From: Megasphaera sp. NM10
Lineage (GTDB): Bacteria > Bacillota > Negativicutes > Veillonellales > Megasphaeraceae
Length of the DNA: 55,369 nt
NCBI RefSeq assembly: GCF_000417505.1
Contig: NZ_APHY01000027.1
Span: 1 to 55,369, forward strand
Direction: 5' to 3'
Made by a program: the position numbers and the translations under genes
The notes under the pieces: model-generated
The model's database searches: none
What the model was told of the DNA's origin: nothing
What the model saw: the letters and a program-made list of their open reading frames with translations, nothing else
In this document: positions 14,132 through 55,369 of the stretch, one piece after another
Layout: every line of letters begins with the position of its first letter
How positions within the stretch are numbered: position 1 is the stretch's first letter

Positions 14132-16540
14132 ATGGCAAAGGACAGAGAAAAAGCATTTGTATTGTGGTTCGATGAACTGCGCAGAGCCGATGTAGCTCTC
14201 GTAGGCGGTAAATCGTCTTCCCTCGGTGAATTGACGTCTCAGACGGATGTTCCCGTTCCCTATGGGTTCGCGACGACAGCCGAAGGCTATCGCCATTTCA
14301 TGCATGAAACGGGCATGGACGTCAAGATCCCGGAATTACTGAAAGGCCTGACCGACGTCGAAGACGCTGTCCAGCTCCGCGATGTGACGGCAAAGATCCG
14401 CAAGGCCATCTGTGATGCAGAAATGCCGGCCGACTTGGCAGCCGATATCCGCAAGAGTTACGAAGAATTGGGTAAGAAAGTCGGCGAAGCCAATCCTTTC
14501 GTCGCCGTCCGCTCCAGTGCAACCGCTGAAGACTTGCCGGACGCCAGCTTTGCCGGTCAGCAGGATACGTACCTCAACGTCCAGGGGGCTGACATGGTCA
14601 TCCAGAAGGTCAAGGAATGTTACGCATCGACCTTTACCGACCGCGCTACGTACTACCGCACGAAACAGGGCTTCGATCATCTCTCCGTCGCTTTGAGCGC
14701 CGCTATCCAGATGATGGTCTTCTCCAAAGCTGCCGGCGTCATGTTCACCGTCGACCTGGTCACGGGCGATGATTCGACGATTACCATCGAAGGGGCCTGG
14801 GGCCTCGGCGAATACGTCGTACAGGGCACGGTTACGCCGGATAACTTCAAAGTCCGCAAAGACGACCTGACCATCCTCTCCAAGATGATCAATACCAAAC
14901 CGATCGAACTGGTCCGCAAACCGGGCGGCGATTGCGAAGAAAAACTCGTTCCGCCGGAACTGCAGAAACAGCAGGTCATTACGGACGAACAGGTAAAGGA
15001 ACTGGCTACGTACGCCAAAGCTATTGAAAAGCATTACGGCTGCTACATGGATATGGAATGGGGCGTCGACGAACGGACCAATAAGGTATGGCTCCTCCAG
15101 GCCCGTCCGGAAACGGTATGGTCCAAGAAGAATAAAGAAAAGAAAGAAGCCGCTGCCGAAAAGGCCGCTGTCACGACGGACCGCAAAGTCGTCGTCAAAG
15201 GCCTGCCGGCCAGCCCGGGCAGCGCTGCTGGCAAAGCCCATGTCATCCTCGACCCGTCGAAGATCGCTGAATTCAAAGACGGTGAAATCCTGGTTACGAC
15301 CATGACCGCTCCGGACTGGGTACCGGCCATGAAGAAGGCCAAGGCCATCGTCACCGATGCCGGCGGCATGACCTGCCACGCTTCCATCGTCAGCCGTGAA
15401 TTGGGCATCCCCTGCATCGTCGGCACGAAGAGCCGCAGCGTCGAAGCGACGACAACCATCCAGGATGGCGCAGAAATCACAGTCGATGCGACGAACGGCA
15501 TCGTCTATGAAGGCATCGTCGCCGACATCGTCAAACCGGAAGCTGCTGAAGCCCCGGCCGGCCAGACTGCAACGACCGTCGTCGCTGCCGAAGCCGCTCC
15601 GATTACGGGCACGAAGATTTACATGAACCTGGGCAACCCGGATTTGGCTGAAAAATACGGCAAACTGCCTTGCGACGGCATCGGCCTCATGCGCGAAGAA
15701 TTCATCTGGACGACATTCATTCATGAACACCCGTTATACCTCATCGAAACGGGCCGGGCTGACCGCGTCGTCGATCAGTTGTCCGAAGGTATCCGCAAAG
15801 TCTGCCAGGCACTGGCTCCGCGTCCGGTCACGCTGCGCCTGAGCGACTTCAAATCGAGTGAATACCGCAACCTGACAGGCGGTGACAAATACGAACCCCA
15901 GGAAAGCAGCGCCCTCCTCGGCTGGCGCGGTGCTTCCCGTTACTATGATCCGAAATACGTCGAAGCCTTCAAACTGGAACTGAAAGCTGTCCGCAAAGTC
16001 CGCGAAGAATACGGCTACAAGAACCTCAACGTCATGATCCCCTTCTGCCGCCGCGTCGATGAAATGCAGAAAGTCGTCGACCTCATGGCTCAGGAAGGCC
16101 TCCACCGCGGTCCGGACTTCAAGGTCTGGCTCATGGCTGAAATCCCGTCCAATATCATCCTGGCCGACCAGTTCAACCAGTTCGTCGATGGCTATTCCAT
16201 CGGCTCCAACGACCTGACCATGCTCATCATGGGCTGCGACCGCGACAACGATACGGTAGCACCGCTCTTCGATGAACGCAACCTGGCAGTCAAACGGGCT
16301 ATCCGCCATCTCATTGCCGTAGCCCATAAGGACGGCAAGACCGTTTCCATCTGCGGCCAGGCACCGAGCGTCTATCCGGACTTCGCTGAATTCCTGGTCA
16401 AGAGCGGCATCGATTCCATCTCGGTCAACCCCGATGCCGTCGTATCGACACGGAAACACGTGGCACAAGTCGAACAGCGTATCCTCCTCGATTCGCTGAC
16501 AGGCAAGGGCCGTGCTGATACAGAAGATTATACGTGGTAA
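14132..16540 (+). CDS. ppsA: Phosphoenolpyruvate synthase
   Basis: This enzyme (802 aa) makes PEP from pyruvate and ATP (giving AMP and phosphate), allowing gluconeogenesis from lactate or pyruvate. Domain order is ATP-grasp nucleotide-binding domain (about 20-340, VGGKSSSLGEL, AVRSSATAEDLPDASFAGQQ), swivelling phosphohistidine domain with the catalytic H416 in GGMTCHASIVSREL, and PEP/pyruvate TIM barrel with C741 in SICGQAPS. T414, two residues before the His, is the site that the companion regulatory kinase would modify. A linker around 470-490 is Ala/Glu-rich. It has its own strong promoter and terminator; the regulator genes follow downstream. Confidence 0.96.
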   Translation: MAKDREKAFVLWFDELRRADVALVGGKSSSLGELTSQTDVPVPYGFATTAEGYRHFMHETGMDVKIPELLKGLTDVEDAVQLRDVTAKIRKAICDAEMPADLAADIRKSYEELGKKVGEANPFVAVRSSATAEDLPDASFAGQQDTYLNVQGADMVIQKVKECYASTFTDRATYYRTKQGFDHLSVALSAAIQMMVFSKAAGVMFTVDLVTGDDSTITIEGAWGLGEYVVQGTVTPDNFKVRKDDLTILSKMINTKPIELVRKPGGDCEEKLVPPELQKQQVITDEQVKELATYAKAIEKHYGCYMDMEWGVDERTNKVWLLQARPETVWSKKNKEKKEAAAEKAAVTTDRKVVVKGLPASPGSAAGKAHVILDPSKIAEFKDGEILVTTMTAPDWVPAMKKAKAIVTDAGGMTCHASIVSRELGIPCIVGTKSRSVEATTTIQDGAEITVDATNGIVYEGIVADIVKPEAAEAPAGQTATTVVAAEAAPITGTKIYMNLGNPDLAEKYGKLPCDGIGLMREEFIWTTFIHEHPLYLIETGRADRVVDQLSEGIRKVCQALAPRPVTLRLSDFKSSEYRNLTGGDKYEPQESSALLGWRGASRYYDPKYVEAFKLELKAVRKVREEYGYKNLNVMIPFCRRVDEMQKVVDLMAQEGLHRGPDFKVWLMAEIPSNIILADQFNQFVDGYSIGSNDLTMLIMGCDRDNDTVAPLFDERNLAVKRAIRHLIAVAHKDGKTVSICGQAPSVYPDFAEFLVKSGIDSISVNPDAVVSTRKHVAQVEQRILLDSLTGKGRADTEDYTW

Positions 16541-16566
16541 TAGCATATCCGATTTATGAGTAATAG

Positions 16567-16610
16567 AAAGGCGGTCCCAAAAGAAAAACAGACTTTTGGG
16601 CCGCCTTTTT
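16567..16610 (+). terminator. Terminator of ppsA
   Basis: Stem AAAGGCGG...CCAAAAG / CTTTTGGGCCGCCTTT (one wobble/bulge) followed by T-run. Confidence 0.85.
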
Positions 16611-16681
16611 CTCATACTAGGACCTTGTATTATACACTATTTGCATATTATACATCTTATATCGCGGGATGTTTTTATATA

Positions 16682-16690
16682 TGTTATGAT
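16682..16690 (+). promoter_or_regulatory. Extended -10 promoter of regulator genes
   Basis: TGTTATGAT at 16682-16690, about 50 bases before the ccpN-like start; no good -35 is seen. Confidence 0.45.
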
Positions 16691-16738
16691 AATAAGTGAA
16701 TAAGAGAACGCTTGCTATGTAGGGGGTGAAAAGACGCT

Positions 16739-17377
16739 ATGTTATCGGAACGTCAGGAAACGATTTTACAGATTGTAAAGGAAAACAGTCCGATTACGGG
16801 CCAGCATATTGCTAACCGGCTCCACGTGACGCGGGCAGCCCTGCGCTCGGACCTGGCCATCCTGACCATGTTAGGGCTCATCGATGCGCGGCCGAAATTA
16901 GGCTACTTTTTTACGGGCAATAAAGAAAAAGACCTGCTCTCGCGGGCCATCACGGATATCACCATTGATTCCTGCCTGTCGCAGCCTGTGATCGTCGGTG
17001 AGCATACGAGTGCTTACGATGCGATCATCGCCATGTTTACGGAAGATGCGGGGACCGTCTTTGTCGGGACGGACAATATCCTGGCCGGCGTCGTATCGCG
17101 AAAGGATTTATTGAAAACGGCTATGGGCAGCAATGACCTGCGGGCCCTGCCGGTGCGCATGGTCATGACGCCAGTGAGCAAAGTGATCTATGCCCAGCCT
17201 GAGGAAAAGGCTATCGTCGCCGCTCAGCGCCTGATCGAATATGAAATCGACTGCCTGCCTGTCGTCGAGGTCGAAAGTACCGATGAAGACGACAAGAAGG
17301 AATTGAAGATCCTTGGCAGGATATCAAAAACGAACATAACCCGTCTCTTTGTAGAATGTGGGTTAGGGAGGAGATAA
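16739..17377 (+). CDS. CcpN/YqzB-like HTH and CBS-pair transcriptional regulator
   Basis: The 212-aa protein has an N-terminal helix-turn-helix (residues about 5-60: ETILQIVKENSPITGQHIANRL, TRAALRSDLAIL) and a tandem CBS domain pair (about 75-205), the architecture of Bacillus CcpN/YqzB. That protein represses gluconeogenic genes and senses adenine nucleotides. The gene starts after AGGGGGTG and is followed 2 bases later by the PEP synthase regulatory protein, the same pair order as in Bacillus (ccpN-yqfL). Placement just downstream of ppsA suggests that ppsA is a target; this is inference. The Bacillus CcpN-box consensus was not clearly found. Confidence 0.87.
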   Translation: MLSERQETILQIVKENSPITGQHIANRLHVTRAALRSDLAILTMLGLIDARPKLGYFFTGNKEKDLLSRAITDITIDSCLSQPVIVGEHTSAYDAIIAMFTEDAGTVFVGTDNILAGVVSRKDLLKTAMGSNDLRALPVRMVMTPVSKVIYAQPEEKAIVAAQRLIEYEIDCLPVVEVESTDEDDKKELKILGRISKTNITRLFVECGLGRR

Positions 17378-17379
17378 CT

Positions 17380-18201
17380 GTGGAAAAACCGATTATTTAT
17401 GCCTGCTCAGACTCGCTTGGTGAAACGGCTGAACGCGTCGCCCGGGCAGCAGCCAGCCAGTACGACAAGCAAGAATTCAACATCATCCGCGTACCGTACA
17501 TCCGGTCGGAACAGCAAATCGAGGAGCTGGTCTGCAAGGCCGAAGCTCACAATGCCATGATCTGCTACACCATCATTTCGCCGACCCTGCGCCGGAAACT
17601 GTGGGAACTGACTAAGTCGGCCAACGTCACCGTCGTCGATATCATCGGCCCCATGCTGGCCGGCGTCGGCACCCTGACGGATACGGAACCGACTTTGAAG
17701 GCCGGCATGATCCATCAGCTCGACGAAGAATATTTCAAACGCGTCGAAGCTATCGAATTCGCCGTCAAATACGACGACGGCAAGAACCCCATGGGCTTCT
17801 TGAAGGCCGATATCGTCATCGTCGGCGTCTCGCGCACGTCGAAGACGCCCCTTTCCATGTACCTGGCCCATAAGCGCATCAAAGCGGCCAACCTGCCGCT
17901 GGTGCCGGAAGTCAGCCTGCCGCCGGAACTGTTCCAGATCCCGGCCCGCAAGATCGTCGGCCTCATCATCGACCCGTTCAAGCTGAATTTCATCCGTTCG
18001 GAACGGCTGCGCAGCATGGGGCTCGATGCCAACGCCAGCTACGCCAATATCGAACGCATCAATGAAGAACTGGAATATGCCCGCGGTGTCATGCGCCGCC
18101 TCCATTGTCCCATCATCGATGTGTCGTCCAAGGCTATCGAAGAAACGGCGAACCTGGTCATGGAAATCGTCAAACGCAATAAAGAACTGTATCCAGAATA
18201 A
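17380..18201 (+). CDS. PEP synthase / PPDK regulatory kinase-pyrophosphorylase
   Basis: This is a DUF299-family regulator, 273 aa from GTG 17380 (AGGGAGGAG site, right after the ccpN-like stop). Family proteins use ADP to phosphorylate the Thr near the catalytic His of PEP synthase or pyruvate phosphate dikinase, and remove it with phosphate. The P-loop-like GVSRTSKTPLSMYLA lies near residue 152, after a conserved N-terminal IYACSDSLGETAERVARAA. The nearby ppsA with its GGMTCH motif is the obvious partner, so it would be the PpsA-type (PPSR); the bifunctional ADP-dependent chemistry is known for the family, not tested here. Confidence 0.92.
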   Translation: MEKPIIYACSDSLGETAERVARAAASQYDKQEFNIIRVPYIRSEQQIEELVCKAEAHNAMICYTIISPTLRRKLWELTKSANVTVVDIIGPMLAGVGTLTDTEPTLKAGMIHQLDEEYFKRVEAIEFAVKYDDGKNPMGFLKADIVIVGVSRTSKTPLSMYLAHKRIKAANLPLVPEVSLPPELFQIPARKIVGLIIDPFKLNFIRSERLRSMGLDANASYANIERINEELEYARGVMRRLHCPIIDVSSKAIEETANLVMEIVKRNKELYPE

Positions 18202-18321: not shown

Positions 18322-21300
18322 ATGAAAGATTCGACGACAGCCATTTTCACGTCCCTGTCGGCGGCCCTGGAGAGCCGGCATTTTTTGGCGACGCTGGGAA
18401 TGGAAAAAGATGAAATGACGGCCTGGATACGCCGCAGCCGCCTGCGGTCCCTGGCCGATGAATTACAGCACTGCCGCGACGGGGAAGGGCGCTTTTCTTC
18501 GCCTGCTGTCGTCGCGGCGGCCAAACCCTATCTGGACTGCCTCCGGGACGAACCGGCCGGCGGCTGGCTGCGCTGCTGCCATCAGCGCGTCCTGGCCCGC
18601 CTCTTTCCCGGTTCCTGCCAGGGCCCGGAGGCCATGGCCCTGACAGGGCGCGGCAGTCATGGCGACATCTACCGGCGGGGCTGCCTGATCCTCATGCAGG
18701 TCCTGTGCGGCCTCTACCGCTATGAACGCCAGGTCCTGCCCTTCGACCCCAAGCGGGACATGCCCCTGGTATCGGTCCAGGAAATCATGGCCCACGGCTA
18801 CACCAAGGAATACCTGCGCCTGCGTACACTGGCTGCCGACGATTATATTTATGAATTCATGCGCATCGGCGTCGACATTACGCCTTTCAATACGCTGGGC
18901 CACGTCGGCGGCGTCCACTACGTCGCCGTTTACGCAGCTCGCCAGCTGGCGCGGAACGGCATCCCCGTCGACGTCGCCCTCATTTCCGGCGCCGCTGCCT
19001 GCCATGATATCGGCAAGTACGGCTGCAAGAAGAATGAAGAGAAGCGGGTCCCTTATTTACATTATTATTATACGGGCATGTGCTGCCGCCGCCTGGGCCT
19101 GCCGGGTATCGGCCACATCGCGGCTAACCATTCCGTCTGGGACCTGGAACTGGAAAACCTGTCCGTCGAATCGCTGTTGCTCATTTATGCCGATTTCCGC
19201 GTCAAGAGCAGCCGCGATGCCCAGGGAAGGGAAATCGTCCATTTCTATTCCCTGGCCCAGGCCTTCGACGTCATCCTGGGGAAGCTGGATAATGTCGACG
19301 ACGCCAAGCGCCAGCGCTATCAGAAAGTCTATGCTAAATTGGCGGACTTTGAAGATTTCATGAAAGAACACGGCGCCGTCACCGAACTGCCTGCCGACTT
19401 CGCCTGGGAACCGGCCGACCCGCCGCAGCCCATCCATCGGGAAAAAGTCCTCCTCGAAGGCAATGACGTCATTGCCCAGCTCAAATATGCCGCCATCGAC
19501 CACAACATCCGCCTCATGAGCATCTTCCGTGATGAAAGCGATTTTGGCAACCTCATCGAAGCGGCCCGCAGCGAGCGGCAGTGGAAGAATGTCCGCACGT
19601 ATATCGGCATCTTCGAGGAATATTCGACGTACATGACGGAGCATCAGAAGCTCATGACCCTGAAGTTCCTCTACGAGCTCTTGTCCCACCGCGAAGGCGA
19701 CATCCGCCTGCAGGCGGCAGCCCTCATGGGACGCATCATCGCCAATTTCAACGATACGTATACCAAGGAACTGCCCGAAGGCGTCTCCCTGCCGGCCAAG
19801 GCCGTGACCAACCTGTCCCTGTTCACGACCTACCTGGACCGCATCATCTGCCCGGATATCCGCTTCACCGAGCAGCACAAGCTGTGGATCGGCTACTGCC
19901 TGAGCACCTTTGTATCGGCCGTCCTGCACCGCTGTGCCCGGTCCCAGCGTCCCCGCTATACGGCCGTCATGGGGCCGTATTATGAACGGCGCAATTACAG
20001 TGAAGAAGAGTATATCATCCTCTTGAAGGTCCTGGCCGACATGGACCGGGACTATCTGGACGAAGCCTTTATGGCCGCCGCCGGCCCCTTCATAGAAAGG
20101 GCCAAGCAGAGTGAATCCTTCAACCTGCGCGTGGCCGCCCTGAACTGCGCCCGCCACGTCTTTGCCGACTATACGGATGACTTGTACTATAAGGACCTGC
20201 TCAAGGTCATGAACCTGCCTGAAGGGCGGGACGCCTTCTTTGAACGGGAAGGCAACCTCTTCCTGGCCGACCTCAAGATGGGGACCCATTGGGTCGTCAA
20301 AGTGGCCAACCTGGAACTCATGCTGCGCTACATCGACGGCCAGAGCGATGCCGGCAGCGTCATGCATCTCGGGACCCATCTGACCAATCTGCTCAAGGTC
20401 AGCGAATCCATCTTCGTCCGCCGCGCCGCCGGCAACAGCCTGCTCAAGATTGCCTCGAACATGACTTATGCCCAGCGCAACGAACTGACGGTCGAACTGT
20501 TCAACGGCCTGGAAATCGGCGACCCGCAGATTTCTAAATACGTGCCGGAATTTTTGGGCAAGATGATCCTCAAGCTGCCGCCGCGGGAGTTCGACGAATT
20601 CGTCAAGACCATCGAAGGCCAGCTGCTGACGGTCAACATCCCCTTGGCAGCGTCCATGGTCCAGACAGTGGGCATCATTTTGGAACAATTCGACGAATTT
20701 GCCAAAGAGTTCTCAGAAGACCCGGCGGTCAACGAAAAGCGCCAGCGCCGCCTGCTGTACATCATGATCAAGGCCTATGCCCATTACAATAAGGAACTGA
20801 GCCGCGACGCCTTTCGCGATTTAGGGAAATTCATCTTCCACAGCCCGCTCATGCCGGACGAACGGAAAGATTTCCTCTTCAGCCACTGCTATAAGAAACT
20901 CCTGGTCCTCCTCGATGAGAACAGCGAAGAAAACCTGGATTTCTACAGTAATTCGGCCGTGCTCAACCATATTTACCGCTACATCAGCCAGCACGAATTC
21001 GCCAGAGGGCCCTTTACCTTTGAAACAGGCCGCAAGCCCTGCTTCTATCCGGGGACCTTCGACCCCTTCAGCCTGGGCCACAAGGCCGTGGCCTGCAAGA
21101 TACGCGACCTGGGCTTCGACATTTACCTGGCCCTCGATGAATTTTCCTGGTCCAAGCACACCCAGCCGCGGCTCATGCGCCGCAAGATCATGAACATATC
21201 CGTCGCCGATGAAGAGAACATGTATCCCTTCCCGGACGATATCCCCATCAACATCGCCAATCCGGCGGACATCAAGAAGCTCAAGGACATCTTTGCCGGC

Positions 21301-23163
21301 CGGGACCTGTACATCGCCGTCGGCACGGACGTCATCGAAAATGCGTCGGCTTACCGGGCCGTACCGACGCCGGATTCGATCCATACGGTCAACCATATCG
21401 CCTTCGCCAGGGAGACGCGGGAAAATGCCGAACCGGACCAGCATGAAAAGACCTACGGCATCCAGGCCAAGGTCATCCGCCTGACGCTGGACAAGTTCTA
21501 CGAAGACATCAGCTCGACGAAGATACGCGAGAACATCGACCTTAACCGGGATATTTCCAACCTCATCGACGCCGTGGCACAGAACTTCATTTACGATAAC
21601 AACCTTTACCTGCGCGAACCGGCGTACAAGCACGTCCTGGAAGCTCGGGAAATCGGCATCGGCTCTTTCAAGCCGCGCGGCGCCGAAAGCCTGTGGCCCA
21701 TCTGCAGCGCCCTCTGGGATAAAGGCTACCATACGGAGACCGTCGACAGCTACGTCGAAAAGGACTATGTCTGGACGCTGTACATCGACGACGCCAGCCA
21801 GGAGCGCAAGATGATCGCTTACGCCGCCGTCCACCGCGTGGGCTCCCGCGATTTGCTGCGCGAGTTCCACGACTCGGCCATTGCCTCGCACATCCGCGAT
21901 GCCGCTGACGGAGGCATTGCCTGCATCGGCTTTCTCTATGCCGACGACATGGCCGGCATTGCCAATGTCAGCCAGATCATCATTACGGAAATCCTGACAG
22001 AGCTCATTGCCCGCGACTACGCCTACGCCGTCTACCATCCCGTCGATCCGGCCGGCTGCGAGCAGCCCGTCATCGACGCATTGCGCCGCCAGGGGTTCGT
22101 CAACATTGCGCCGCCGGAAGAGACGCCGATTTATGCAGTCAACATGAAATCGCCCATCGTCATTTTCCGCGACGTCGAAACGACCATCAAGAACCCCTTC
22201 AACAAGAATCCCCGCGTCCGCCGGGCCATCTACGAGGCCCACAACAATCTGTTGTCGGTCATGAACCACATTTATCCGGGCCAGCTCATCCTGTCTTTCA
22301 ACATGAGTGCCTTTTATAATAAGATCATCAAGAAAGTCGCTGAAATCAACGGCGTTTCCATCGTCGAAGACAAGAAGAAGCGCCGCGGCCCGTACATGAC
22401 CGTTCCCTTTGGCAAGGCCCTGAGCGATGTCCTCGTACCCAACACGGTGACCAAGGGCCTGCACATCGACAAGTATTTCGACCGCACGGTCAAGTCTTTT
22501 ACCATCGCCGAATGTCAGCACTATTCGTCCGTCGACAATCAGGTCAAGACCATCAAGTCCTTCGACAGGCCGGTCATCCTCATCGACGACCTCCTGCACA
22601 AAGGCCACCGCATGCGCATGCTGACGCCCTACCTGGAACAGAACGGCGTCGAAATCAAGGAAGTCCTGGTCGGCGTCATGACCGGTCAGGCCATGGACAT
22701 GATGGAAGAAAAGGACATCCGCGCCGAGAGCGCTTATTTCCTGCCCAGCCTGGAAGTCTGGCTCAACGAAAGGGACTGCTATCCCTTCATCGGCGGCGAC
22801 AGCCTGGACAATGCCCATAACTACAGCGGCTACGGCCGCAATCCGTCGATCAACCTGGTCCTGCCCTATGTCAAGCCGGCTTTCATCGGCAAGGGCAACA
22901 GCGACGCCGACTACTTATACTCCCTGACGTGTCTGCAAAATGCCGCATCTATCATGGAGACATTGCAGGACGTCTACCAGGAAACCTTTGAAAAACGCCT
23001 GACCCTGAAGCGGCTCGGCGAAGTCATTACCTACCCGCGCATCCCCGATATCGACGTCGGCGTCAAGTTCGATGAGAACATGGACCCGACGCGCTTCATC
23101 AAGAACGATATCGAACGGCTCATCCGCCTGCGCTGGGGGGAAGGAGATGGAGAACTTGAATAA
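18322..23163 (+). CDS. Giant multidomain protein: HD, helical repeats, NMNAT-like, GNAT-like, PRTase-like
   Basis: This 1613-aa protein starts at ATG 18322 after GGAAGGAG. Residues about 150-300 hold an HD-type metal site (H199, H228-D229, H270, D291). Residues about 370-880 are helical and HEAT-like. A nucleotidyltransferase follows: FYPGTFDPFSLGH (908-920) matches the HxGH signature and ISSTKIR (1063-1069) matches the ISSTxIR motif of NMN adenylyltransferases. Residues about 1110-1280 look GNAT-like, ending VIDALRRQGFVNI. A C-terminal part has the PRPP-loop-like VILIDDLLHKGHR (1418-1430). There is no signal peptide or membrane segment. The 3' end overlaps the next gene by 17 bases. HD with NMNAT recalls the nadD-yqeK pairing, and PRTase plus NMNAT in one chain would suffice in principle to build a dinucleotide. 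No characterised function is known to me; domain limits are by eye. Confidence 0.8.
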   Translation: MKDSTTAIFTSLSAALESRHFLATLGMEKDEMTAWIRRSRLRSLADELQHCRDGEGRFSSPAVVAAAKPYLDCLRDEPAGGWLRCCHQRVLARLFPGSCQGPEAMALTGRGSHGDIYRRGCLILMQVLCGLYRYERQVLPFDPKRDMPLVSVQEIMAHGYTKEYLRLRTLAADDYIYEFMRIGVDITPFNTLGHVGGVHYVAVYAARQLARNGIPVDVALISGAAACHDIGKYGCKKNEEKRVPYLHYYYTGMCCRRLGLPGIGHIAANHSVWDLELENLSVESLLLIYADFRVKSSRDAQGREIVHFYSLAQAFDVILGKLDNVDDAKRQRYQKVYAKLADFEDFMKEHGAVTELPADFAWEPADPPQPIHREKVLLEGNDVIAQLKYAAIDHNIRLMSIFRDESDFGNLIEAARSERQWKNVRTYIGIFEEYSTYMTEHQKLMTLKFLYELLSHREGDIRLQAAALMGRIIANFNDTYTKELPEGVSLPAKAVTNLSLFTTYLDRIICPDIRFTEQHKLWIGYCLSTFVSAVLHRCARSQRPRYTAVMGPYYERRNYSEEEYIILLKVLADMDRDYLDEAFMAAAGPFIERAKQSESFNLRVAALNCARHVFADYTDDLYYKDLLKVMNLPEGRDAFFEREGNLFLADLKMGTHWVVKVANLELMLRYIDGQSDAGSVMHLGTHLTNLLKVSESIFVRRAAGNSLLKIASNMTYAQRNELTVELFNGLEIGDPQISKYVPEFLGKMILKLPPREFDEFVKTIEGQLLTVNIPLAASMVQTVGIILEQFDEFAKEFSEDPAVNEKRQRRLLYIMIKAYAHYNKELSRDAFRDLGKFIFHSPLMPDERKDFLFSHCYKKLLVLLDENSEENLDFYSNSAVLNHIYRYISQHEFARGPFTFETGRKPCFYPGTFDPFSLGHKAVACKIRDLGFDIYLALDEFSWSKHTQPRLMRRKIMNISVADEENMYPFPDDIPINIANPADIKKLKDIFAGRDLYIAVGTDVIENASAYRAVPTPDSIHTVNHIAFARETRENAEPDQHEKTYGIQAKVIRLTLDKFYEDISSTKIRENIDLNRDISNLIDAVAQNFIYDNNLYLREPAYKHVLEAREIGIGSFKPRGAESLWPICSALWDKGYHTETVDSYVEKDYVWTLYIDDASQERKMIAYAAVHRVGSRDLLREFHDSAIASHIRDAADGGIACIGFLYADDMAGIANVSQIIITEILTELIARDYAYAVYHPVDPAGCEQPVIDALRRQGFVNIAPPEETPIYAVNMKSPIVIFRDVETTIKNPFNKNPRVRRAIYEAHNNLLSVMNHIYPGQLILSFNMSAFYNKIIKKVAEINGVSIVEDKKKRRGPYMTVPFGKALSDVLVPNTVTKGLHIDKYFDRTVKSFTIAECQHYSSVDNQVKTIKSFDRPVILIDDLLHKGHRMRMLTPYLEQNGVEIKEVLVGVMTGQAMDMMEEKDIRAESAYFLPSLEVWLNERDCYPFIGGDSLDNAHNYSGYGRNPSINLVLPYVKPAFIGKGNSDADYLYSLTCLQNAASIMETLQDVYQETFEKRLTLKRLGEVITYPRIPDIDVGVKFDENMDPTRFIKNDIERLIRLRWGEGDGELE

Positions 23164-24127
23164 ATGGATACATGATCTGCCCGGAGAAATCGGAGCCTCT
23201 GCCATGCCCCTCGACAGGGCACCGCAGCTGGCCGGGAAGGCCCGCGTCCATATCGTCGCCTTGGGCGATGTGGGCACGACCATGCTCATCGGCCTGCTCC
23301 TGGCCGGCCAGGACGTCATCGGTTCTGTCGGCATGTGCGATATCAACGAGAAGAACCTGGCCCGCCTGGAAATGGAGATGAACCAGATACGCTACCCCTT
23401 TGCCGGACTGGATGGCTGTGACGACCCGGTCCTGCCGGCCGTGACCATCGTCCCGGAAAAAGACGTCTTCGACTGCGATGTCTTCATTTTCTGTGCCAGC
23501 AAGGGCGTACCGCCTGTCGGCGCCGGCGGCGACGTGCGCATGGCCCAGCTCGAAGCCAACCGCAGTCTCGTCGCCCATTATGCGGCCCTGGCCCGCCAGG
23601 CCGGCTTCGGCGGCCAGGTCTGCATCGTATCGGATCCGGTCGACCCCTTGTGCCGCGCCTTTTTGACCGCTTCCGGTCTCCATCCGTCGCAGATCCAGGG
23701 CTACGGCCTGGGCGTCATGCATGCCCGGGCCTGCTACTATGCGAAAAAGGATCCGCGCTTCGCCCATTATCTGCAAGAAGGCCGCGCCTTTGGACCCCAC
23801 GGGGTAGACCTGGTCATCGCCGACCGCCTCGACGGCTATGACGACGCGCTGTCCAGGGAACTGACGGACCTCGTCGTCCATGCCAACGTCGCCGTCCGCG
23901 ACCTGGGCTACAAGCCCTACATCGCCCCGGCCCTGTCGTCGGCGGCCTTGTCGATCATCCTGACCCTGCGCGGCCAGTGGCATTACGGGTCGGTCTACCT
24001 CGGCGATACATCGAAAGGCGCTTTCTTCGGCGTCAAGAACCGCGTCGCCGGCGGCTGCGTGACCTATGAAGACGTCTGTGCCTGCCCGGCCTTCTATGCG
24101 CGCTGGAAACGGCTTATACGGCACTGA
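23147..24127 (+). CDS. Lactate/malate dehydrogenase-like protein
   Basis: This protein (326 aa) has the LDH/MDH fold. The Rossmann segment VHIVALGDVGTTM has G40-D-V-G43, with the first Gly of the usual GxGxxG replaced by Ala. CDINEKNL provides the acidic residue for NAD ribose. Substrate-side elements are GGDVRMAQLEANRSL (Arg), SDPVDPL (where LDH/MDH have NPVD, so Asn is replaced by Asp) and GPHGVD (catalytic His). The altered Asn suggests a substrate other than lactate or malate, or a non-catalytic role. ATG 23147 overlaps the end of the giant gene with AAGGAG directly abutting it; ATG 23203 is an alternative. It is translationally coupled to the giant gene, so the two likely act together. 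Confidence 0.78.
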   Translation: MENLNKWIHDLPGEIGASAMPLDRAPQLAGKARVHIVALGDVGTTMLIGLLLAGQDVIGSVGMCDINEKNLARLEMEMNQIRYPFAGLDGCDDPVLPAVTIVPEKDVFDCDVFIFCASKGVPPVGAGGDVRMAQLEANRSLVAHYAALARQAGFGGQVCIVSDPVDPLCRAFLTASGLHPSQIQGYGLGVMHARACYYAKKDPRFAHYLQEGRAFGPHGVDLVIADRLDGYDDALSRELTDLVVHANVAVRDLGYKPYIAPALSSAALSIILTLRGQWHYGSVYLGDTSKGAFFGVKNRVAGGCVTYEDVCACPAFYARWKRLIRH

Positions 24128-24156
24128 GCCGCCTCGTATAGGAAGGGGGCCTTGCC

Positions 24157-25238
24157 ATGTTGTTGGTCGTCAAGGTCGGCTGGGAGGAAGCGGGCCACAC
24201 GGAACGAATCCGGCGCGTCCTCGACCGGGCCCTGGCCGGGTGGACGTATACCGTCATCAAACGGGAAAAGGCCTTTTTGCGCTGGTGCGTCCGCACGCCG
24301 GCGGAAAAAGAGGGGACAGCCGTCCTCTTTGCCGTCGCCCTGCCCAGGGCCGGCGTCAGCCTGTCCTATGTCCACCTCGTATCCTGCCTGGTCCGCCACC
24401 GTCACTGCCTGGCCGGCTGCCGCGGTGCCGTCCTCGTCGACGGGCAGGGGGAATTTTTTACAAAAAAAAATAGGCCGGGAGCTGATTTTTTTTTGCCAAT
24501 CAGGCCGGCTGTATCTTTCCCGGGAAGCCTCTCGTCGAGGCTACGGGCTCTCTCTATAATTTTAATACCCAGGCCAAGATCCAGGGCCTCTCTAATGAAG
24601 AGGCCTATGCCGTCAGTGCCGGCCACCTGGTCAACAAGCTGCTGTCCTTCGTTCGCCCGTCCGGGTCAGGGAAGGTCAAAGATATCGTCGTCATCCACGC
24701 CAGCAGCCGCCGCACGTCGAATACGCTCCTCCTCTGGGAGATGGTCCGCTGCCATCTGCAGGGGAAGGCGAAGGTCACGGAGATTTCCCTGCGCAACGGC
24801 AGCGTCGTCGACTGCCGGGGCTGCAGCTACGAAACGTGCCTCCACTTCGGCGAAAAAGGGGACTGCTTCTACGGCGGCGTCATGGTCGAAAAAGTCTATC
24901 CCGCTGTGCGCCAGGGCGACGTCATCGTCCTGGTCTGCCCGAACTACAACGACGCCGTCAGCGCCAACATCACGGCCTTCTTCAACAGGCTGACGGCCCT
25001 GTTCCGCAAGGAAGAGGCGGCCTTTGCCAATAAGGAAGTTTACGCCCTGGTCGTCTCCGGCTACAGCGGCGGCGACATCGTGGCCGAACAGATACTGGAC
25101 GCCATGAACTGCAACAAGAACTTCATCCTGCCGCCGTACTTCGCCCTCATCGAAACGGCCAACGACCCCAAGAGCATCCTCCGGAACGCCGGCATCGAAG
25201 ACCGGGCGGCCCGCCTGGCAAAATACATATGCATGTAG
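24157..25238 (+). pseudogene. NAD(P)H/FMN reductase-like flavoprotein with Cys cluster, frameshifted in T9
   Basis: Two frames read as one gene. The first (from ATG 24157, MLLVVKVGWEEAGHTERI) holds an N-terminal region of unknown type. After the run of nine T at 24486-24494 the matching frame continues as FANQAGCIFPGKPLVEATG through to a flavodoxin-like fold (DIVVIHASSRRTSNTLLLWE, LVCPNYNDAVSANITAFFNR) ending at 25238. One added T restores a 360-aa protein. The flavodoxin-like part has CRGCSYETC and a further Cys (C-x2-C-x4-C-x8-C), like iron-sulfur flavoproteins. A run of nine A (24462-24470) lies just before. The gene starts 29 bases after the dehydrogenase-like gene and is probably in the same operon. 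Sequence error, slippage or decay are all possible. Confidence 0.75.
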
Positions 25239-34094: not shown

Positions 34095-34275
34095 GTGAAC
34101 GAAACACACGGGAGAAGGCAATGCCTACCGACGGAGTCAAACTCTCAGGTGCCCCCGCAAAGGGGTGGGACCGTGTGTGGACACAACTCTGGAGAGTCCC
34201 GTTTGGGCGCCGAAGGTGCAAGGAAGCGATTCCTAATCTCTCAGGCAAAAGGACAGAGCTGGCAGAACGACCTTT
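34095..34275 (+). ncRNA. Tandem glycine riboswitch
   Basis: The conserved glycine-riboswitch pieces occur in order: GGGAGA (34110), CTACCGACGGAG, AACTCTCAGGT, then the inter-aptamer ACTCTGGAGAG, GGCGCCGAAGGTGCAA, ATCTCTCAGGCAAAAGGACAGAG (34236 on, written here in parts). Two aptamers are therefore present. A terminator hairpin lies between it and agcS, so control is likely at transcription. A glycine-importing symporter downstream makes substrate sensing sensible; the direction of the switch is not deducible by eye. Confidence 0.92.
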
Positions 34276-34371: not shown

Positions 34372-35757
34372 ATGTTAGAAACGTTGAATGCCATTGATAG
34401 TTTTGTCTGGGGTCCGCCCTTGCTGGTGCTGCTCATCGGCACCGGCCTGATGCTGACTGTCCGCCTCCATTTGCTCCAGGTCTTCCGCCTGCCGAGAGCG
34501 CTGAAGCTCATCTTCACGGCCAAGAACCAGGGCGAAGGCGACGTAGACAGCTTCAAGGCCCTGTGCACGGCCCTGGCCGCTACGGTCGGGACAGGCAACA
34601 TCGTCGGTGTCGCTACGGCCGTCCATGCCGGCGGCCCGGGCGCTATCTTCTGGATGTGGATGGCCGCTTTCGTCGGCATGGCCACGAAATACGCCGAAGG
34701 CTGTCTGGCCGTCAAATATCGCACGGTCGACAAGAACGGCGATATTGCCGGCGGCCCGATGTACTACATCGAAAACGGCCTGGGCAAGAAATATAAGCCC
34801 TTGGCTTTCTTGTTCGCCTTCTTCGGCGTCCTCGTCGCCTTCTTCGGCATCGGGACTTTCGCGCAGGTCAATTCCATCGTTGAAATCACGCGCCTGACGA
34901 CGAGCATCCCCGTCGAATACACGGCCATCGTATTGACTATCCTCGTCGCTGCCATCACCATCGGCGGCCTCCAGTCCATCGCCCGCGTCGCTTCCAAAAT
35001 CGTCCCGGCCATGGCTGTCATCTATGTCGTTTCTACGGTCGCTTTCCTCGTCGTCTTTGCCGACCAGATCCCGGCTGCTGTTGAACAGATCATCGTCAGC
35101 GCCTTCACACCGACGGCTGCAGCTGGCGGCTTCCTCGGTGCCACGGTATTGGTTGCTATGCGCAACGGCGTTGCCCGCGGCGTCTTCTCCAATGAATCGG
35201 GCCTGGGCAGTGCACCTATCGTAGCTGCTGCTGCCAAAACGAAATGGCCGGCTGAACAGGGCCTCATTTCCATGACCGGTACCTTCATCGACACCATCAT
35301 CATCTGCACTTTGACCGGTTTGGTCCTGGTCGTCAGCGGTGCCTGGATGGGCGATGTCAACGGCGCAGCCCTGACCAATGCGGCTTTCACCATGGCTTTC
35401 CCGACCTACGGCAGCATCATCCTCTGCGTCGGCCTGACCTTGTTCGCCTTCACGACCATCCTCGGCTGGAACTACTACGGTGAACGCTGCGTCGAATACC
35501 TCGTCGGCGTCAAAGGTATCATGCCGTACCGCATCATCTTCATCGCCCTCGTCGCCTGCGGCGCTTTCATCAAACTCGACGTCATCTGGGTCCTGGCTGA
35601 TATCGTCAACGGCCTCATGGCTATCCCGAACCTCATCGCCCTCATCGGCCTGTCTGGCGTCGTTGTAGCCGAAACGAAGAAATACTTCGCTCATTTGAAA
35701 GAAGAAGAAATGGTCGTAGCCAAAGATTCGGAAGAAAAAGTACCGGCTGGCCATTAA
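34372..35757 (+). CDS. Alanine/glycine:cation symporter (AGCS family)
   Basis: This is a sodium-coupled alanine/glycine symporter of 461 aa with about ten to eleven membrane helices. AGCS signatures are CTALAATVGTGNIVGVATAV, GPGAIFWMWMAAFVGMATKYAE, GGPMYYIE, FSNESGLGSAPI and GWNYYGERC. It imports (or exports) glycine or alanine at the inner membrane. It is preceded by a tandem glycine riboswitch and terminator, which supports glycine as the relevant substrate. The start is placed a few bases after GGGGAG. The C-terminal 25 residues are charged and cytosolic. Confidence 0.95.
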   Translation: MLETLNAIDSFVWGPPLLVLLIGTGLMLTVRLHLLQVFRLPRALKLIFTAKNQGEGDVDSFKALCTALAATVGTGNIVGVATAVHAGGPGAIFWMWMAAFVGMATKYAEGCLAVKYRTVDKNGDIAGGPMYYIENGLGKKYKPLAFLFAFFGVLVAFFGIGTFAQVNSIVEITRLTTSIPVEYTAIVLTILVAAITIGGLQSIARVASKIVPAMAVIYVVSTVAFLVVFADQIPAAVEQIIVSAFTPTAAAGGFLGATVLVAMRNGVARGVFSNESGLGSAPIVAAAAKTKWPAEQGLISMTGTFIDTIIICTLTGLVLVVSGAWMGDVNGAALTNAAFTMAFPTYGSIILCVGLTLFAFTTILGWNYYGERCVEYLVGVKGIMPYRIIFIALVACGAFIKLDVIWVLADIVNGLMAIPNLIALIGLSGVVVAETKKYFAHLKEEEMVVAKDSEEKVPAGH

Positions 35758-55293: not shown

Positions 55294-55369
55294 ATCATGG
55301 AGAGTTTGATCCTGGCTCAGGACGAACGCTGGCGGCGTGCTTAACACATGCAAGTCGAACGAGAAGAGA
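55294..55369 (+). rRNA. 16S ribosomal RNA, 5' part (cut by window end)
   Basis: The conserved start AGAGTTTGATCCTGGCTCAG begins at 55301; the mature 5' end is estimated about 7 bases upstream. GGACGAACGCTGGCGGCGTG and TAACACATGCAAGTCGAACG follow. The GAGAAGAGA just before the window end fits my recollection of Megasphaera. The rest lies outside. Confidence 0.97.

Follow-up and report, generated by a model that had tools for sequence, protein, structure and literature searches.

Among the closest described relatives of the locus considered here are proteins of the housekeeping route to nicotinamide adenine dinucleotide (NAD). NadD, described by the model TIGR00482, is a nucleotidyltransferase (NTase) with a core of GTFDP...GH and ISSTxIR motifs and a YTxDT-type motif, which we take to act in nicotinate recognition. 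YqeK (TIGR00488) is a diadenosine tetraphosphate (Ap4A) hydrolase of the HD type, and in NadD-YqeK type fusions (NF005519, PRK07152) an NTase and an HD domain share a single chain, the second half of which is presumably YqeK-like. NTase, HD and phosphoribosyltransferase (PRTase) parts are found across many pathways. One published study (PMC8177086) gives six residues forming an extended H...HD...H...H...D motif as diagnostic of a dinuclear site, with YqeK as an example. We analyzed a 55,369-nucleotide stretch of DNA from Megasphaera sp. NM10 (RefSeq assembly GCF_000417505.1, contig NZ_APHY01000027.1, positions 1 to 55,369 of the forward strand; hereafter the window), in which three neighboring genes encode a 1613-residue multidomain protein (the big protein), a protein resembling lactate and malate dehydrogenases (the LDH/MDH-like, or LDH-like, protein) and a flavoprotein. 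The three genes are inherited together, stay together in different surroundings and are additional to the nadD/yqeK route. We tentatively read them, at somewhat less than an even chance, as a self-contained nucleotide-redox module for the synthesis, remodeling and use of a dinucleotide other than nicotinic acid adenine dinucleotide (NaAD) or NAD.

The big gene begins at an ATG at 18322, preceded by a ribosome-site-like GGAAGGA, and its stop codon ends at 23163. The LDH-like gene overlaps it by 17 nucleotides, and the flavoprotein gene follows:

18322..23163, + strand: gene for the big multidomain protein, 1613 amino acids (open reading frame and motifs)
23147..24127, + strand: gene for the LDH/MDH-like protein, 326 amino acids, with its ATG at 23147
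near 24157 to 25238, + strand: flavoprotein gene, encoding an unnamed N-terminal part of about 150 amino acids and an FMN_red domain with CX2CX4CX8C; reading frame interrupted at two places in the assembly

Within the big gene, seven parts are distinguished:

18322..18798, + strand: residues 1-159, poorly conserved N-terminal helical region (model of residues 1-905; conservation)
18799..19371, + strand: residues 160-350, HD domain with H194, H228-D229, H247, H270 and D291 (extended H...HD...H...H...D pattern)
19510..21015, + strand: residues 397-898, HEAT-type alpha-solenoid (structure model and structure matches)
21028..21618, + strand: residues 903-1099, NadD-type NTase domain (Pfam, structure, hhalign)
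21649..22161, + strand: residues 1110-1280, GNAT-fold part without the acetyl-CoA P-loop pattern (structure match)
22189..22911, + strand: residues 1290-1530, degenerate class I PRTase-like part with the loop VILIDDLLHKGHRM (profile matches, residue counts)
22912..23160, + strand: residues 1531-1613, C-terminal helical tail with conserved LTLxRLxE

An initial annotation of the window had proposed a 1613-residue HD / helical / NMNAT-like / GNAT-like / PRTase-like protein followed by an overlapping LDH/MDH-like gene, and the open reading frame, its motifs and the overlap were all found as it had described them. The big-protein alignment was built from 77 distinct proteins of at least 1480 amino acids, reduced at 92% identity to 64 non-redundant near-full-length rows; the motifs persist across these homologues and are thus not a matter of chance.

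The association of the three genes was followed through their neighborhoods and through their occurrence in whole genomes. A scan of a genome contig collection yielded 388 stretches encoding a relative, and the best 80 loci were kept. Among the 66 of these 80 loci with at least 2400 nucleotides of downstream sequence, the LDH-like gene was present in 63 and both partners in 62, so that the conserved neighborhood raised by the initial annotation as a point to check is real. The loci short of one or both partners are L103, L105, L110 and L111; at the first three the LDH-like gene is missing locally but lies elsewhere in the genome, and it was found in 11 of 11 genomes when these four and seven further loci were considered. 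Across 400 genomes from the family of an Oscillibacter isolate, with gene presence called at E <= 1e-30, the big and LDH-like genes each occurred in 65 and the flavoprotein gene in 64. All three were present in 62 of the 67 genomes that had any of them, the incomplete cases being G639, G523, G481, G649 and G690, which makes this a rarely split unit, and one that carries no assigned function. Co-occurrence of the big and LDH-like genes in this set gave a Fisher p of 3e-72, uncorrected for shared ancestry. Where a genome combined an unsplit big gene with an LDH-like match (51 genomes), the latter lay directly downstream on the same strand in 44, on another contig in six and further along the same contig in one. 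Correlations between the distance matrices of the three proteins over 23 loci were 0.66-0.70, with 0 of 500 shuffles as high for two of the pairs; the species tree was uncontrolled in this comparison, which is not counted as evidence.

The same pattern holds within the genus, where the big gene and the LDH-like gene occur in the same 11 of 15 genomes and are both missing from the same four, those four having been left out of the flavoprotein search. The order of big gene, LDH-like gene and flavoprotein gene was seen in all ten same-genus neighborhoods. The flanking genes vary while the three genes stay a unit: ppsA, ccpN, ppsR and recG of the window are present in six of the ten neighborhoods and in none of the other four (L034-L037), the contig of L034 extending only 2 kb upstream. 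In the window, the genes directly upstream of the module (14132-18201) encode phosphoenolpyruvate synthase, a CcpN-type regulator and a PpsR-type regulator. In Acetoanaerobium noterae the big gene is 34% identical, retains the key motifs and has both partners in order; the 2.63-Mb sequence NZ_CP154629.1 of this species, labelled a plasmid, is chromosome-like in size. In a Spirochaetes bin (L078 7778-9824), the flavoprotein gene still neighbors the others but is read from the opposite strand, so that linkage is kept even where the genes do not form a single operon.

The NTase domain is the part of the big protein that passes a family cut-off. Pfam CTP_transf_like matches the window protein at 4.4e-8, above its cut-off, and is found in 62 of 62 alignment members (all Pfam member counts over the alignment were made at E <= 0.1). 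In the AlphaFold2 model of residues 880-1613 (mean pLDDT 86.6), comparison with solved chains by VIA-align superposed the domain on NadD 3e27 with Z 16.9, rmsd 2.7 and 177 aligned residues. Against NadD-type proteins hhalign gave 98.1% (E 1e-13), its pairwise profile-profile E-values having no calibration for database search. The signature pair consists of FYPGTFDPFSLGH at residues 908-920 and ISSTKIR at residues 1063-1069; G911, F913, D914, H920, S1064, S1065, I1068 and R1069 are present in every one of the 64 rows and T1066 in 61, with the first position of the HxGH motif being S in 53 rows and T in 11. The NadD core is therefore kept, and the NTase assignment of the initial annotation is upheld by a profile match over cut-off with intact core motifs. 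On the substrate side the picture differs, as a YTxDT-type motif is found in 13 of 15 NadD-type proteins and, with a slightly looser pattern, in 0 of 64 big-protein rows, these 15 proteins being class-member matches to the NTase part that were not scored against TIGR00482. Against that model the window protein scores 29.9 bits versus a cut-off of 112.45, and the other copies in the genus also fall below it. Both nadD and yqeK are above cut-off in 15 of 15 genus genomes, whether or not the module is present, and the module is thus extra to the housekeeping NAD route; a housekeeping NadD role was rejected for this reason. A dinucleotide product other than NAD would fit both the absence of the YTxDT motif and the existence of a separate nadD/yqeK pair.

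The HD metal site proposed in the initial annotation is borne out by H194, H228, D229, H247, H270 and D291, which are invariant across the alignment, and on this residue pattern the site is probably dinuclear. NF045665, the model of the DVU_1551 family NTP transferase with an HD part, matches the HD region in 51 of 51 members at E <= 0.1, and Pfam HD does so in 39 of 51, with the score of the window protein under the Pfam cut-off. The best match of the HD profile among solved structures was an HD protein at E 0.079, and in the model of residues 1-905 (mean pLDDT 89.4) the matches listed are solenoid chains that crowd out the HD region. Kinship of this domain to YqeK, the HD type that the initial annotation had noted as a neighbor of nadD, is weakened and was kept as a resemblance, since hhalign gave 1.8% and TIGR00488 had no match at the big gene in the 15 genus genomes. 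The solenoid (residues 397-898) matched many HEAT/TOG chains, the best with Z 16.1 (rmsd 4.8, 261 aligned), a score that shape alone often gives to helical repeats; Pfam HEAT in the window protein reached E 0.009, under its cut-off.

The two partner proteins are of NAD- and FMN-binding families. In L-lactate dehydrogenase, a pair of arginines binds the substrate, a histidine is catalytic and an aspartate of the Asp168 type acts as its relay. R131, R194 and H218 of the LDH-like protein align with the substrate arginines and the catalytic histidine and are present in 30 of 30 aligned proteins, and its profile finds solved LDH/MDH chains with a best E of 3.2e-10. DPVD stands in place of NPVD, and among Pfam and NCBIfam models no LDH/MDH model passed its cut-off, Ldh_1_N falling short by 0.1 bit. 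Some LDH-like proteins, such as L092 10943-12220 and L096 5068-6315, are extended at the N-terminus relative to the Megasphaera copies, by very roughly 90 residues. The Cys-cluster flavoprotein of the initial annotation is present, with its C-terminal part (24741-25238) matching FMN_red at E 1.3e-13, but the gene is longer than the reading frame then noted. FMN_red and four invariant cysteines spaced CX2CX4CX8C occur in 27 of 27 aligned flavoproteins. The N-terminal part is not a copy of the C-terminal half; apart from FMN_red, Flavodoxin_2 and FeS, no Pfam family appears in more than one of the 27 members, and the profile found no solved relatives at E 0.001.

A nucleotide-redox function apart from NAD synthesis is suggested by an NTase that keeps its core but differs on the substrate side, an HD site without variation, a remote relationship to PRTases and partners from NAD- and FMN-binding families. 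In the proposed scheme, the PRTase-like part would handle a substrate bearing ribose 5-phosphate, either phosphoribosyl pyrophosphate (PRPP) or a mononucleotide, and the NadD-type part would join that mononucleotide to adenosine monophosphate (AMP) from adenosine triphosphate (ATP) to yield a dinucleotide different from NaAD. The HD site would hydrolyze the same product or an intermediate, while a scaffold may be provided by the solenoid together with the GNAT fold, which lacks its cofactor loop. The LDH-like protein, with its NAD-type fold, and the Cys4 flavoprotein would bind, reduce or oxidize the product. A more specific version is fairly unlikely, namely a dedicated route to a new NAD-like dinucleotide coenzyme in which synthesis of the mononucleotide, its adenylylation and its recycling all fall to the giant protein, and the product is used by a pair of dedicated oxidoreductases.

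Several observations weigh against a catalytic module of this kind, among them some on the PRTase-like part. Its PRPP-loop-like VILIDDLLHKGHR, at residues 1418-1430, keeps the DD pair (D1422 and D1423, each in 63 of 64 rows) and G1428 (57 rows), but the TGxT phosphate loop is lost, its last T position being R in 63 rows; the motif named in the initial annotation thus stands in its acidic pair, while an ordinary PRPP loop is weakened. A further segment, N1374-K1378 (NTVTK), is present in all 64 rows. Pfam Pribosyltran (PF00156) scores 13.6 bits in the window protein versus a gathering score of 26.3, and reaches E <= 0.1 in 25 of 62 members with a best value of 2.8e-4; as the unrelated family Lipid_DES matches 11 of the same 62 members with a best E of 8.7e-4, Pribosyltran E-values of this size are weak. 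In comparison with 15 proteins of the genus retrieved by the apt model, hhalign gave 70.3% (E 4e-5), the remaining 33 pairs of that run reaching at most 9.3%. Among solved structures the profile ranked two designed repeat proteins first, then a ribose-phosphate pyrophosphokinase (E 0.093) and a hypoxanthine PRTase (E 0.13), matches too weak to count, and in the structure comparison of the confident 880-1613 model NTase and GNAT chains crowded the matches listed, among which there was no PRTase. The proposal that profile searches would find both an NTase and a PRTase with intact residues was accordingly confirmed for the NTase and only in part for the PRTase, where a remote relationship and the DD pair stand without TGxT or a score over cut-off. 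The GNAT-like part has a GNAT fold, matching RimI 2cnm with Z 14.2, rmsd 3.2 and 137 aligned residues by VIA-align, but the acetyl-CoA loop pattern [QR]xxGx[GA] is found in none of the 64 rows, which weakens a working acetyltransferase. In the same way, the LDH/MDH-like identity holds as a profile relationship, while a normal LDH or MDH is weakened by M191 at the relay aspartate position in 30 of 30 proteins.

Further points on the same side come from the surroundings. No transporter or pathway gene recurs widely beyond the three genes at the surveyed loci: ten neighbor types were scanned, with matches to pta, dus, lysR, a DHODB Fe-S protein, a DapF-type protein, DapH, a response regulator and rhomboid; two types had no family, and every one of the ten was confined to a minority of loci. 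No riboswitch was found beside the module in the six sources scanned, in which the only ones were the glycine riboswitch far downstream in the window and an S-adenosylmethionine one about 2.4 kb upstream on the other strand at L082. In the wider order the LDH-like gene was present in only 3 of 245 genomes, so the module is patchy. Separately, a search for the consensus of a Rex-type operator in 63 upstream stretches gave no signal (mean best mismatch 5.16 versus 5.26 in shuffled sequence).

With its PRTase loop and LDH relay degenerate, the module could instead be a redox or nucleotide sensor, in which the big protein would bind NAD(H), Ap4A-like nucleotides or PRPP and control metabolism, with the partners acting as redox-sensing proteins and not as enzymes. 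Binding residues kept beside degenerate catalytic ones, a GNAT fold without its cofactor loop and a large solenoid suited to protein-protein contacts all agree with such a role, which we nevertheless consider fairly unlikely. Against it, none of the 64 rows varies at the catalytic-type residues of the HD and NTase parts, and no DNA-binding family is among the Pfam and NCBIfam matches of the big protein.

The kinship to NadD leaves room for another alternative, an accessory NAD salvage or repair system in which the NTase would act on nicotinamide mononucleotide, nicotinic acid mononucleotide or a damaged mononucleotide, the HD domain would clear dead-end dinucleotides and the partners would oxidize or reduce damaged pyridine nucleotides. 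NadD is the closest relative of the NTase, and the LDH-like and FMN_red parts have NAD- and FMN-binding folds, as this explanation would expect. The absence of the YTxDT-type motif from every row, the low TIGR00482 score and the presence of a normal nadD/yqeK pair in all 15 genus genomes oppose this explanation, which is unlikely. Very unlikely is a system for modifying a macromolecule or secondary metabolite, in which the module would build a nucleotide-activated group that its partners process; the wide use of NTase, HD and PRTase parts agrees with it, as does NF045665 being the named model that most HD members match, but the surroundings of the three genes offer no other widely recurring pathway gene, and PADLOC has no defence match to the big protein. 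The chance that the locus is an annotation accident, an array of unrelated genes with weak domain matches, is practically negligible: although the window protein scores below threshold for HD, HEAT and PRTase, the linkage and co-occurrence counts and near-full-length conservation across 64 rows refute it.

Two other origins were considered and rejected. A defence system was set aside since a PADLOC search at E 0.01 found nothing for the big protein; its one Cas2 row for the LDH-like protein, over 30 residues at E 0.006, reads as chance. A phage origin was dropped as no match at E 1e-5 was found among 50,697 phage records.

Carriers of the module are gut, rumen and other anaerobes from several families, and in 85 related genomes outside the genus nothing beyond a NadD-type match was found. 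In a tree of 67 big proteins, the window row joined Acidaminococcaceae rows and Eubacterium pyruvativorans in starred sets, and by best segments the window protein shares 65% identity with the E. pyruvativorans copy and 58% with that of Megasphaera micronuciformis, which may point to transfer between classes. In Anaeroglobus geminatus (L037, L043) a frame change splits the big gene into a 1498-amino-acid reading frame and a C-terminal remnant. The rumen bins Mogibacterium RGIG5865 and RUG12063 (L066/L067 and L063/L072) each hold two different module copies, and they may be mixed bins.

The frame of the flavoprotein gene in the window changes at two homopolymer runs:

24462..24470, + strand: run of nine A, flavoprotein frame change
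24486..24494, + strand: run of nine T, second flavoprotein frame change

Compared with L028, whose big protein is 93% identical, the assembly has one extra A in the first run and one extra T in the second, and the two halves are in a single frame in 10 of 10 same-genus neighborhoods. The double frameshift may be an assembly error, decay or phase variation; the source genome is a draft of 174 contigs. Elsewhere in the window, the glycine riboswitch (34179-34266) precedes a sodium:alanine symporter family gene (34372-35757), and the window breaks off 76 bases into a 16S rRNA gene (55294-55369), a common place for contigs to end.

If the module does make a new dinucleotide, it would add a redox coenzyme or signal to the short known list. 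Were it a sensor, it would still bring two redox proteins together with adenylyl transfer and an HD phosphohydrolase site.

Each domain is of a known kind, and as a combination the three-gene unit matches no named system: none was found in Pfam, NCBIfam or PADLOC, nor was the module found in the literature searched, which was open-licence only, with queries partly aimed elsewhere. Class I PRTases (PF00156) share with the big protein the PRPP-motif DD pair and a remote profile relationship, but in the latter xGxR replaces TGxT and the NTVTK segment is added, while GNAT acetyltransferases share the fold and keep the acetyl-CoA loop that the big protein lacks. The LDH-like protein resembles L-lactate and malate dehydrogenases in its substrate arginine pair, histidine and profile match to solved chains, and differs in its Met for the relay aspartate, its DPVD and its failure to pass any LDH/MDH model. 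The flavoprotein shares FMN_red and four invariant cysteines with iron-sulfur flavoproteins and NADPH-dependent FMN reductases (PF03358), a putative kinship, and is set apart by its cysteine spacing and its unnamed N-terminal part. NF045665 matches the HD region of all 51 members, but by the C-terminal third of the model alone and far under its 315-bit cut-off. YqeK has the same extended HD residues at a different spacing, without a profile match and encoded by a separate gene, which in the window genome adjoins nadD, its NTase counterpart. Like the NadD-YqeK type fusions, the big protein unites NTase and HD on a single chain, but it places the HD domain first, then about 500 residues of solenoid and then the NTase, and scores 28.2 versus 315. 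NadD itself shares the fold and the two core motifs, whereas the big protein, far under the TIGR00482 cut-off and without the YTxDT-type motif, embeds its NTase in 1613 residues in genomes that also encode a normal NadD.

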